Origin: an uncultured Myxococcales bacterium
GTDB taxonomy: Bacteria; Myxococcota_A; UBA9042; DTJE01
NCBI GenBank assembly: GCA_903847405.1
Contig: CAINDP010000133.1
Coordinates: 1 to 58,219 of the forward strand
Length of the DNA stretch: 58,219 bases
Direction of reading: 5' to 3'
Shown here: positions 34,789-42,091 of the stretch, one piece after another
Position numbering within the stretch: the first letter of the stretch is position 1
Layout: the number at the start of each line of letters is the position of its first letter
Made by a program: the position numbers and the translations under genes
Notes under the pieces: generated by a model
What the model saw: only the letters and a program-made list of their open reading frames with translations
The model's database searches: none
What the model was told of the DNA's origin: nothing

Positions 34789-34896
34789 TCCGGTCTTGCG
34801 CGTTGCCGCATACTTCACGAGAATGTCACGGCCGCGACGGGGGCGATACGGCCCGTCCCGGTGCATGACCGACACCTCCGGGAGGAAACAGGACCC

Positions 34897-37188
34897 ATGA
34901 CGCAGCGAATCCACCACGTGGTTCCTCTGGCGCTCTGGATGGCCATCGGGCTGGCCGGGCTGGGCTGTGGCAGTTCGAACGACGGCGCGGCCGACGTTCC
35001 CGATACGCAGACGGACACCGTCACCGACGACGGCCCGGGCGACGTCCTGGATGTCGCGGACGTGCCGGTCATCGTCGATGCGCCGGACGTCGTCGACCTG
35101 GACACCCTCCCGGGCGACGTCTCGACCGACGTGCCGGCCACCCGGCAGCGGACGTTCAGCTTCCGCGCGTTGTGCGGCATGTCGATGGGCGCCGCGGCCA
35201 TGACCGTCGCGACCCACTCGATCACCCGGGGCGGTCCCGACTTCGACGTCATCGGCGCCATGGGCGGCTATATCGACTACCGCTACATGAGCCACGCGTT
35301 CCGGGATCTGTTGATGGGCGGCTTCCCCAAGATGTCCGACATCCTGGACCACATCGACACGATCAACGATCCGGTCGCGTCGGGGCTGGAATGCGGGCCG
35401 GTGGCCGGCACGCAGCCCTACGAGTGGGCCTGGAGTTTCAACCAGTTGCACTACAACAACAACGGCGGCGCCTGGAAGCGCCAGTTCTACCTGGACGCGA
35501 TCGGCAGTTTCTCGTACGCCTTCGGCAACATGATGTCCTACAACCCCGACAACCCGCTGCTGCCTCCGGGAGTGCCGTACGAGTGGATGAGGGACACGTC
35601 CCGCGGGGAGATGTGCGCCCATCCCTACGTCATCCCGAAGAAGTCCAAGGACGCGTACAACGCCGAATACAACCCGAACGGCGACTACGACCTCGTCACG
35701 GTGTGCGACGGCGACACCCCGGTCGGATGCAAGGACGACGACCCGAACCTGTGCGGGACCAGCAACCCGGACTACCGGCAGTTGGCCTCGTGGTTCGACC
35801 CGTCGCAGCCGCACAACTTGCCGTACCCCTTCCTGCTGGCCGTGGATTACAACGGTAACGGCAAGCGCGACTACGCCGAACCGATCGTCGTCAACGCCAT
35901 CGAGCGCTTCAGCGACGTGGGCCTGGACGGGTGCCCGAACGCGCTGGAGGACGGCCTGGGCGGGTGCCTTGCGGCAGCCCGCGCCAACCCGGTGGGCGAC
36001 CCGAACGGCGACGACTTCGACCTGCAGACCCGGCCCCTGGGCACCGAGGGAAACTTCGAATACGACGCGGAGACGGGTACCGGACGGCACGAGTCCTATG
36101 AGGACTTCGGGCTGGACGGCGTGGCGGGCACGCTGGATTACGGCGAAGGCGACGACCAGTACTCGATGAGCCCGGGCATGAAGGCCCTGATCGACCAGGA
36201 CGTCCGGACCTTCATCATGAACGCCACGGACGAGCAACTGCGCAACCACACCTGGTACTTCGACGGCGGCATCCGGGACGCGCTGCACTCGCTGACGTCG
36301 AACATGCACATCACCGCCCGCCTCGAGGAACGGGGACAGGGCGTCCGGATCTACGACGACTTCGCCCGGACCTCGACCGCGGTGGTGCCCAACAGCGATC
36401 TGAACGAACTGGCGCTGGACCTTTCCGGCGTGGACTTCTCGCCGGCGCATTTCGGCCGCAACGCGATGGTCCGGTACGGCGACCCGAACGCGGCGCTCAG
36501 CGACATCCTCGCGGGGGACGGCGGGCACGTGGGAGCCGGCGCCGAAATCGTCCTGCGGGCAACGATGTTCTTCGGGTTGGCGTTCAACCGGATGCCCGAC
36601 GTGTTCGTCAGCCAGGATTTCAGCGGGGGCGCAGCGGTCTGGTCGTCCCACTATTCCGAGGCCCTGAAAGGCCGGCGCTGGTTCGTGCTGGCGGTGCCAC
36701 CCGGTTATGACGACCCGGCGAACAAGGATCGGAAGTACCCGCTGGGCATCATGCTGCCGGGCATCGGGATGCCCCTGAACGACATGTCCGCGACCATGGC
36801 GGTCTTCGACCTGCTGCAGTCCAACGGCCGGATCCCGCACTTCATCACGCTGCTGCCCGACGGCCAGTGCGCGCTGGTCCGGACCAGCGACGGCAAGCGC
36901 ATGCCGGGCTGCGTGGAAGGCCCGAACGGCGGGATCGACTGCGTGGACGACGAATGCAAGGGCCCGCACGAAACCTGTACGGTCACCCACTTCGACAATG
37001 ACGCGGGCATGCGGCAGGAGTGCAACAGCGGGCACTTCTTCGTGAACCACAAGACCAACATCTGGGGCGATCCCGGCAAGGCGTCCGAAATGAAGTACGA
37101 GGACAGCCTGTTCGAGGTCATCACCCACGTGAACCAGAACTACCGCGCGAAGGAATCCGGCACCTACGAGGTCCCCGCGGACTGGTAG
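34897..37188 (+). CDS. Alpha/beta-hydrolase (esterase) lipoprotein with permuted domain order
   Basis: 763 residues from the ATG at 34897 (AGGA just upstream). Lipoprotein-like signal ending AGLGC, an Asp/Val/Pro linker (to about 80), then CGMSMGAAA with Ser96 at the nucleophile elbow (GxSxG). Downstream, GGIRDALHS gives a candidate acid Asp461 and GDGGHVGAG a candidate His544. Only after these, at about 599-730, come VPPGYDDP, KYPLGIMLPG and IPHFITLLPDGQ, which in esterase D/feruloyl-esterase proteins form the N-terminal half and precede the GxSxG. The chain ends with YEDSLFEVITHVNQNYRAK, normally placed just before the Ser. The order therefore looks circularly permuted. Calcium-style loops (DYNGNGKRDYAE) sit between. 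Substrate unknown. Confidence 0.75.
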   Translation: MTQRIHHVVPLALWMAIGLAGLGCGSSNDGAADVPDTQTDTVTDDGPGDVLDVADVPVIVDAPDVVDLDTLPGDVSTDVPATRQRTFSFRALCGMSMGAAAMTVATHSITRGGPDFDVIGAMGGYIDYRYMSHAFRDLLMGGFPKMSDILDHIDTINDPVASGLECGPVAGTQPYEWAWSFNQLHYNNNGGAWKRQFYLDAIGSFSYAFGNMMSYNPDNPLLPPGVPYEWMRDTSRGEMCAHPYVIPKKSKDAYNAEYNPNGDYDLVTVCDGDTPVGCKDDDPNLCGTSNPDYRQLASWFDPSQPHNLPYPFLLAVDYNGNGKRDYAEPIVVNAIERFSDVGLDGCPNALEDGLGGCLAAARANPVGDPNGDDFDLQTRPLGTEGNFEYDAETGTGRHESYEDFGLDGVAGTLDYGEGDDQYSMSPGMKALIDQDVRTFIMNATDEQLRNHTWYFDGGIRDALHSLTSNMHITARLEERGQGVRIYDDFARTSTAVVPNSDLNELALDLSGVDFSPAHFGRNAMVRYGDPNAALSDILAGDGGHVGAGAEIVLRATMFFGLAFNRMPDVFVSQDFSGGAAVWSSHYSEALKGRRWFVLAVPPGYDDPANKDRKYPLGIMLPGIGMPLNDMSATMAVFDLLQSNGRIPHFITLLPDGQCALVRTSDGKRMPGCVEGPNGGIDCVDDECKGPHETCTVTHFDNDAGMRQECNSGHFFVNHKTNIWGDPGKASEMKYEDSLFEVITHVNQNYRAKESGTYEVPADW

Positions 37189-37208
37189 GGGCCCAACCGG
37201 GGGTGACC

Positions 37209-38021
37209 ATGAACGCGCGTCTTGCGGTTTTCGCCCTGGCGCTGGCGCTGGTTGCCTGCAAGGTCGACGCCCCGCTGTCGATCGACGATGCGTCCGGCGA
37301 CTCCCCCGATGCGCTGCCGGATTCCACGGTCACCGGCGACGCTGCGCCGGACTGCACCGGTTCCCTCCTGCCGGCGGGGTGTCCCTGCGTCGGTTCCAGC
37401 GGTTGCGCCAGCGGGTGGTGCGTGTCCGAACCGCCCCTGGGGCTCCGGTGTACCACGACCTGCGCGTCCGTTTCCGACTGCGCGCCCGAGGACGCCTGCG
37501 TCATGATCGGGTTGGAGGAGGTGTACCTCTGCGTCTGGCGCGGCGTGGGGGCCTGCGTGCCGTGCGCCGCCGACCGCGACTGCGTCGGCGTCGCGAACCA
37601 TTGTGCCGCGGTGGGATCGACCCTGCATTGCCTTCCGGAATGTGATCCCGGCACCTGCCCCGACGGGACCGAATGCCGGGCCGACACCGAGGGCCGCAAA
37701 CTGTGCTTCCCGGTGACCGACACCTGTCCCTGCGTCCCCGAATCGTGCAACGGCGTCGACGACGACTGTGACGGCAAGACCGACGAGGAGGGGGCCGAGG
37801 GCTGCACCCTGTTCGGGTTCGACGACGACGACGACGGGTACGCCCGGGTGTTGACGGTCTGCCTGTGCGGGCCGATGGAAGGCACGACCCTGACGGCGAA
37901 CGTCGCGGGGGACTGCAACGACTTCGATGACCATGTGTACCCGGGACGGGTCGAGGACTGCGCCACGACGGCCGACGACAATTGCGACGGCGCCGTGAAC
38001 GAGGGGTGCCCGGCGACGTGA
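37209..38021 (+). CDS. Cys-rich lipoprotein with MopE-type metal-binding motif
   Basis: 270 residues, 20 bases after the esterase gene, so probably one operon. Signal peptide ends LALVAC (lipobox). A short linker is followed by Cys-pair repeats (CVGSSGCASGWC, CASVSDCAPEDAC, CAADRDCVG) and then the putative metal-binding motif family: ESCNGVDDDCDGKTDEE and DNCDGAVNEGC, the type named after the copper protein MopE. The Asp-rich loops should bind calcium or similar ions outside the cell. FDDDDDGYARV between them supports this. Role not known. Confidence 0.85.
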   Translation: MNARLAVFALALALVACKVDAPLSIDDASGDSPDALPDSTVTGDAAPDCTGSLLPAGCPCVGSSGCASGWCVSEPPLGLRCTTTCASVSDCAPEDACVMIGLEEVYLCVWRGVGACVPCAADRDCVGVANHCAAVGSTLHCLPECDPGTCPDGTECRADTEGRKLCFPVTDTCPCVPESCNGVDDDCDGKTDEEGAEGCTLFGFDDDDDGYARVLTVCLCGPMEGTTLTANVAGDCNDFDDHVYPGRVEDCATTADDNCDGAVNEGCPAT

Positions 38022-40895: not shown

Positions 40896-41062
40896 GGTGT
40901 TCCTCGTCGATGACCCGTGAAGCATGGCGATTTCCGGGGGGTGAACGCAAGCGGGAAGGCTGCGGGAAGGCGGGTTGCGTCGGGGATGGGTGGGGGCCTT
41001 CGTGTTGCAGGGTGCCGTCCGCCTTCGGGGTACAATCCGCGCCGGTCCGGTGGGGGTGGCAG

Positions 41063-42091
41063 ATGGGTCCGGCACATCAAGGCAAGAAGGCGAAGGCGAG
41101 GGCGACCGCGGCGCTGGCGGGCGTCTGCCTGGCGGGGCTGTTCGCGGGCTGCGCGGGCCTGATCGTCGAAGCGCCCGTGAAGGCCGAAGGGCAGATCCAG
41201 GCGGACCTCCCGGGCCTGGAACGCACCGTTGACGACATGATGCGGCGCGACCTGCCGGTGGCCCTGTCCATCGCGATCGTCAACCGGGGCACGCTGGTCT
41301 GGTCCAGGACGTTCGGCGCGGCGGGCGACGGGCTGTTCCAGGCCGCATCGATCAGCAAGGTCGTTTCCGCATACGCGGCCCTCAAACTGGTCCAGGAAGG
41401 CAGGCTGTCCCTGGACGCGCCCCTGTCCGGAATCCTGCCGGTCCCGTACTTCCCGCAGGGCTCGCCGGGCGAACGCATCACGCTGCGGATGGTGTTGAAC
41501 CACACGTCCGGCCTGCCGAACGATGCCCTGGGCCGGGACCGCACCCTCCGTCACGCGCCGGGGCAGGGATTCCTGTACTCCGGGGGCGGGTTCGCCTACC
41601 TCACCCGCGTGGTGCAGACGGTCGTGGGCCAGCCCTTCGACACGTTCATGGAACGGCAGATCCTGGCGCCCCTGGGCATGGGCCACAGCAGGTTTCGAAT
41701 CGACGGATACGGGGTCCACGGCGTGTCCGCCGCATACAGCCTGGTGACGACGGCCGAGGACCTGGCGCGGTTCTTCCTGGAACTGATGGCGCCGCGCCAC
41801 ATCGATCCGGCGCTGGTCCAGGCGATGCTGTCGGATTCGGTGCGGATCAACGAAAAGTACGCATGGGGCCTGGGAGTCGGCATCCAGCACGGCGGCGGCG
41901 AGGATGCGATCTGGCAATGGGGCTACAACGGCAACTACCACCGGGCCCTGGCGATCTTCTACCCCAAGACCGGCACCGGGGTCGTCGTCATGACGCGGGG
42001 ACTGAACGGTTCTGGATTCCTGGCGCGGGTCGCGCACGCGGCGATCGGCGGGCCGCAGTTCGGGCTGGATCAGGCAATTCCGCTGGAGTGA
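41063..42091 (+). CDS. Beta-lactamase/transpeptidase-like serine hydrolase lipoprotein
   Basis: 342 residues, ATG at 41063. Signal ends LAGLFAGC (lipobox), so it is membrane-anchored in the periplasm or on the surface. Class C-like beta-lactamase fold: SISK (nucleophile Ser and general-base Lys of SxxK, inside AASISKVVSAYAALKL), YSGGGFAY where most relatives have YxN, HTSGLPND, and a C-terminal WQWGYNGNYHRAL in the KTG/HxG region. The Tyr-Ser-Gly in place of Tyr-x-Asn fits an esterase or peptidase more than a true penicillinase. Substrate unknown. Confidence 0.88.
   Translation: MGPAHQGKKAKARATAALAGVCLAGLFAGCAGLIVEAPVKAEGQIQADLPGLERTVDDMMRRDLPVALSIAIVNRGTLVWSRTFGAAGDGLFQAASISKVVSAYAALKLVQEGRLSLDAPLSGILPVPYFPQGSPGERITLRMVLNHTSGLPNDALGRDRTLRHAPGQGFLYSGGGFAYLTRVVQTVVGQPFDTFMERQILAPLGMGHSRFRIDGYGVHGVSAAYSLVTTAEDLARFFLELMAPRHIDPALVQAMLSDSVRINEKYAWGLGVGIQHGGGEDAIWQWGYNGNYHRALAIFYPKTGTGVVVMTRGLNGSGFLARVAHAAIGGPQFGLDQAIPLE

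Follow-up and report, generated by a model that had tools for sequence, protein, structure and literature searches.

Swapped halves in a predicted lipoprotein esterase of Myxococcota: evidence for a circular permutation of the PF00756/CE1 fold

The stretch of DNA analysed here (the window, 58,219 nucleotides from an uncultured Myxococcales bacterium) carries a gene whose product shows the motifs of an alpha/beta-hydrolase in an unexpected order. The nucleophile elbow lies close to the N-terminus, the Asp and His motifs follow, and the block that opens an esterase D-type protein closes the chain. Natural circular permutants of enzymes are uncommon, and the question raised by this locus is whether it encodes one, as a first-pass annotation had proposed, or whether the motif order has another cause. 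Considering the explanation as a whole, we find it very probable that the product is a serine esterase, secreted and anchored by a lipid, and that its catalytic domain is a circular permutant, of natural origin, of the PF00756/CE1 alpha/beta-hydrolase fold.

Reading frame, motifs and predicted catalytic residues

The following features were delineated; A1 denotes a set of 32 family members.

34897..37188, + strand: open reading frame of the putative circularly permuted esterase lipoprotein, 763 aa, with full-length homologs
34880..34890, + strand: ggaggaaac, probable ribosome-binding site ahead of the ATG (34897), by direct reading
34897..34968, + strand: predicted signal peptide with lipobox LGC, Cys24 at 34966-34968; lipobox-like motif also in relatives
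34969..35145, + strand: acidic linker rich in D, P, T and V, residues 25-83, without an esterase remnant
35149..35190, + strand: strand beta5 and nucleophile elbow RTFSFRALCGMSMG, Ser96 at 35182-35184; the permuted domain begins here
35300..36250, + strand: large insert between the elbow region and the Asp strand, with EF-hand-type loops; boundaries approximate
35845..35880, + strand: EF-hand-type loop DYNGNGKRDYAE, residues 317-328, supported by the ligand positions in A1
35914..35949, + strand: EF-hand-like loop DVGLDGCPNALE, residues 340-351
36103..36138, + strand: EF-hand-like loop DFGLDGVAGTLD, residues 403-414
36265..36279, + strand: GGIRD, residues 457-461, with the predicted catalytic Asp461 (36277-36279), invariant in A1
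36517..36534, + strand: DGGHVG, residues 541-546, with the predicted catalytic His544 (36526-36528)
36619..37185, + strand: C-terminal block, residues 575-763, with strands beta1-4, oxyanion loop LPGIG and helices A and B

That the reading frame is genuine is shown by GGAGG ahead of its ATG (34897), by a full-length paralog in the same genome (locus L002, G000:C118:5520-7739, minus strand; 48% identical) and by an orthologue in the same genus (71% identical). All motifs on which the first-pass annotation was built were found close to where it had placed them, namely the elbow GMSMG with the nucleophile Ser96 (residues 94-98), VPPGYDDP (600-607), KYPLGIMLPG (613-622) and LLPDGQ (652-657). The stretch YEDSLFEVITHVNQNYRAK, which had been taken as the end of the chain, is indeed present near the C-terminus (residues 734-752), but 11 more residues (ESGTYEVPADW) follow up to residue 763. 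GxSMG and PPGYD occurred together in 0 of 20,000 shuffles of the window protein, and thus the motif set is not due to chance.

By pattern and by reading, the N-terminus has the signal peptide and lipobox Cys of a putative bacterial lipoprotein. This is in good agreement with the earlier proposal of a lipoprotein with a linker ahead of the Ser, as Cys24 is followed by the linker at residues 25-83. Of 48 unique relatives, 45 contain a lipobox-like motif towards the N-terminus according to a loose pattern. Outside the pattern, L008 reads PAGC, while L029 and L139 begin at a contig end; thus, all relatives with a complete N-terminus show such a motif. A membrane location of the protein may be expected.

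Conservation also points to a Ser-Asp-His triad with a GxSxG elbow. The Ser motif is kept in all 48 unique relatives, a count that holds partly by construction because the set was selected on GxSMG. It could be argued that the protein, although correctly permuted, is a catalytically dead binding or structural lipoprotein, since 14 of the 48 proteins, including the window protein, have Pro-Gly in place of the oxyanion His-Gly. However, the His motif is kept in 48 and GxRD in 47 of the 48, and the Asp and His columns are invariant in A1, so that we regard this alternative as quite unlikely. Pro-Gly should preserve the backbone amide of the oxyanion site. As hardly any of the 48 unique proteins lacks the Asp or the His motif, an active serine esterase is likely. 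The mechanism would then be ordinary Ser-His-Asp ester hydrolysis, in which backbone amides presumably hold the oxyanion, namely that of Met97 and those of the P-G loop around residues 621-622. Analogy with the nearest families allows a guess at the substrate, which might be a polysaccharide-linked ester or a polyester.

EF-hand-type loops occur in the large insert, at about 2.3 per protein in the family. The first loop fits the 12-residue pattern DxNxNGxxDxxE, and its residues D317, N319, N321, D325 and E328 are nearly invariant in A1. From these motifs, the insert is probably a calcium-stabilised lid. The calcium-loop-like motif of the insert (NPDPxxDDFD...GTEGNGxFDEGEP) was also read in ORFs of about 790-843 aa for putative LptD-like outer-membrane proteins (L177, L178, L179), where it apparently forms an insertion.

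Order of the two halves relative to PF00756 and CE1

The window protein itself matches no Pfam model at E up to 10, in native or in rotated order; a significant PF00756/CE1 model match is found for the family and not for this protein alone, whose membership follows from its relatives and the family profile. PF00756 is matched by 26 of the 32 members of A1 at E up to 1 (best 1e-9). The best stretch of native L025 is C-terminal (residues 678-805) and aligns with model positions 1-114, and in native L028 an N-terminal stretch (253-320) aligns with positions 115-180. When the native ends of L025 are joined, a single stretch covers model positions 1-146 with an E-value of 2.5e-12; L025 exceeds the curated cut-off of PF00756. 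In the window protein, the C-terminal block (575-763) corresponds to the first half of the model (1-114), and the start of beta5 and the elbow corresponds to approximately position 115 onward. The halves meet at 114/115, so the break lies just before the strand of the nucleophile elbow, where it had been predicted.

A PDB search with a profile of 32 family members retrieved the CE1 feruloyl esterase 7XRT (E 1.3e-16). Read from N- to C-terminus, 7XRT is matched in turn by family positions 473-553, 624-649, 8-42 and 323-378, of which the second and fourth stretches are weak; the alignment of GGIRD to its CGDDD segment is weak as well. The ordinary esterases retrieved as a comparison agree with 7XRT in their order, which is opposite to that of the permuted family. 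An HMM built from 31 ordinary esterases detected both halves in 55 of the scored family entries (repeats included; the whole set comprises 48 unique proteins), and in every one of these the halves are swapped, with the break at CE1 model position 130 or so of 266. The CE1 comparison set was gathered with the family profile, so that neither the esterase order nor the 55/55 result is fully independent of that profile, while the Pfam and PDB results are independent of this collection. PF00756/CE1 proteins run from beta1-4 and the oxyanion loop to GxSMG, Asp and His. This order was not found in the family, which shows GxSMG, Asp and His and then the beta1-4 block. The family is a permuted offshoot of PF00756/CE1, not an ordinary member.

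Rotation of the sequences is in good agreement with this. The profile-profile score of the family against ordinary CE1 rises from 160.1 in native order to 226.6-226.9 (the range over the cuts made after the elbow and ahead of the C-terminal block), with one alignment running across the native ends, and it falls when the cut is placed inside either half. As a negative control, unpermuted type I PHB depolymerases were rotated against CE1; their score changed from 112.1 to 62-109 and never gained. As a positive control, type II PHB depolymerases rotated against type I improved from 119.5 to 217.8, and therefore the method recovers a known permutant.

The core (residues 81-763; 683 residues, 32 sequences) was modelled by AlphaFold2 as one compact domain with pLDDT 91.8 and pTM 0.91. 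The model starts with the elbow strand and helix, followed by the Asp and His strands; its last part has two strands and then, in turn, the strand leading to LPGIG, a helix, the strand leading to PDG and the helix that precedes NYR. This order of strands and helices fits the expectation for a permutant, and pTM and homology together suggest that strands beta1-4 pack beside beta5. The swapped Pfam and PDB stretches, the rotation test, the uniformly swapped entries and the compact model thus bear out the circular permutation relative to PF00756 that the first-pass annotation had put forward.

In a Foldseek search with the core model, the type II PHB depolymerase 2D81/2D80 was the top match (329 columns), while CE1 and esterase D structures matched over approximately 84-198 columns. 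None of these matches is strong: the best E-value is 1.5e-3, and 2D81 has a TM-score of 0.35 when normalised by target. The low TM-scores would be accounted for by the insert and the permutation. A model of the distant member L176 (overall pLDDT 62, most core blocks 75-94) gave the same pattern, with about 135 columns for CE1 and 228 for 2D81. It was dropped as a source of structural detail, its overall confidence being too low.

One may ask whether the family is a member of the type II PHB depolymerases and owes its permuted order to them. The type II order of lipase box, Asp, His and oxyanion residue is found in the family as well, and the top Foldseek match to 2D81/2D80 extends over the full target length. 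The sequence comparisons, however, point elsewhere. Compared profile to profile with six type II sequences, the family scores 34 (30 columns at the elbow, probability 14%), as against 227 with CE1, and a search with the family profile does not retrieve 2D80 at E up to 10. Among the NCBIfam models, one for xylanase/feruloyl esterase is matched by 14 of 32 members and that for type 1 PHBD by 8, whereas none of the 32 matches the type 2 model NF050059 at E up to 0.1. Type II sequences, in turn, match type I strongly once rotated. We therefore consider a type II ancestry very unlikely. In a tree of the cores, the permuted family and CE1 form near-complete separate groups; the type II sequences, which covered too few columns (38-46 of 164), were left out of it. 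Three partial PF10503 matches, taken as possible type II enzymes, turned out to be ordinary unpermuted hydrolases.

A combination of two separate domains, an N-terminal hydrolase and a C-terminal esterase-like fragment, might be suspected from the large insert between the halves and from the missing Pfam match of the window protein alone. It is hardly credible given that both halves match one and the same family, in complementary, non-overlapping parts of PF00756 that meet at 114/115, and that the joined ends yield one continuous alignment. With pTM 0.91 for the whole 683-residue core, there is no sign of a separate C-terminal domain, and no second unpermuted hydrolase core was seen. These two outcomes, and an assignment of the halves to different families, had been named beforehand as speaking against a permutation, and none of the three occurred. 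An assembly or fusion artefact, conceivable for a draft genome of 273 contigs, is already refuted by the homologs, as the paralog shows the same full-length order and so do many genomes of the phylum, among them G196 and G340 with one or two contigs.

Distribution and genomic context

Family matches were obtained in 31 of 90 nearby genomes. Within the phylum Myxococcota, 111 of 379 sampled genomes were matched, a number that includes some first-half blocks of ordinary esterases or the insert motif only, so that the count for the full family is somewhat lower. Homologs with the same order were found across the phylum. The full-length family was absent from 398 genomes sampled from the phylum of a Caulobacter record and from 198 sampled from that of a Yinghuangia record. 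Since these two other phyla (about 600 genomes) contained no full-length member, the permuted family may be confined to Myxococcota.

No gene neighbourhood is conserved throughout the permuted family. Synteny was seen at family level only, with genes reading as ethanolamine ammonia-lyase and microcompartment components (EutB, EutC, EutL) 2-7 kb from the esterase on the opposite strand in four genomes (L111-L114). In the window, the next gene downstream (37203-38018, + strand) encodes a putative lipoprotein with a MopE-type metal-binding motif (PF11617), and a serine beta-lactamase-like protein (PF00144), possibly another serine esterase or peptidase, is encoded at 40910-42091 (+ strand). Several distant relatives (L025-L031 and others) carry, between lipobox and GxSMG, a domain that reads as ZU5-like (LGPAVxFxPxGxxFxxPxxFTIPY...FGTYQAV); this N-terminal domain is without a Pfam match.

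Origin of the permuted order and comparison with known systems

In the architecture we propose, the new N-terminus would lie just ahead of strand beta5 and the Ser96 elbow, with Asp461 and His544 next, while strands beta1-4 and the oxyanion loop, now C-terminal, would fold back beside beta5. The permuted order probably goes back to a single event in a myxococcotal ancestor and has persisted ever since. An origin by tandem duplication and loss, which the first-pass annotation had considered, is possible and so far unsupported, because no relative keeps a first-half remnant before the Ser: none of 66 entries has a first-half block upstream of it, and the N-terminal extensions of relatives gave no CE1 signal.

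The order as such is not new, because type II PHB depolymerases already have it, a precedent absent from the first-pass annotation. To our knowledge, this is the one well-known case with such a topology in the alpha/beta-hydrolase superfamily. Since sequence ties type II to type I and the present family to CE1 esterases, the permutation probably arose twice at the same place. From a more general point of view, alpha/beta hydrolases have likely undergone permutation with a break at the elbow on two or more independent occasions: type I would have given rise to type II PHB depolymerases, and CE1 to the Myxococcota lipoproteins with their predicted calcium-loop lid. If true, permutation would have a natural hot spot in the linker before beta5. 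Two cases that are independent in sequence and broken at one and the same place would demonstrate that the fold can be opened at this point, and type II PHB depolymerase and the present family would form a natural pair for permutation studies.

While the topology is known from another family, the permuted CE1/PF00756 esterase domain conserved across Myxococcota is well supported; in the open-access literature searched, no permuted CE1 esterase and no case from Myxococcota was found. For annotation, order and divergence hide permuted esterases from Pfam, as seen from the window protein with no match at all.

The CE1 feruloyl and acetylxylan esterases and esterase D (PF00756; 7XRT, 1JJF, 5VOL, 8Z91) resemble the family in catalytic residues and fold and give the best profile match, with the common motifs YSxxLPPGYD, YPVxxLHGxG, ELIxYVDxxYRT and RAIxGxSMG. 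Unlike them, the family has swapped halves, an insert with EF-hand-type loops, a lipobox and an Asp-His spacing of 83 residues. Type I PHB depolymerases (PF10503, NF050058) are distant alpha/beta-hydrolase relatives; they are unpermuted, and their match to the family (score 68 for the rotated family) is much weaker than that of CE1. The circular permutation of type II PHB depolymerases (2D80/2D81, NF050059) is evident from the rotation of six type II sequences, and Hisano et al. 2006 reportedly described 2D80 as a circularly permuted alpha/beta hydrolase. The 2D81 enzyme has the triad S39-D121-H155, with C250 in the oxyanion hole (PMC9878459), and in type 2 PHA depolymerases the lipase box lies near the N-terminus and the oxyanion hole is C-terminal (PMC11893044). 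These enzymes are closest to type I, show hardly any sequence relation to the family beyond the elbow and, in the six sequences read, are without a calcium-loop insert. What they have in common with it is the permuted order, the break before the Ser strand and the top structural match.
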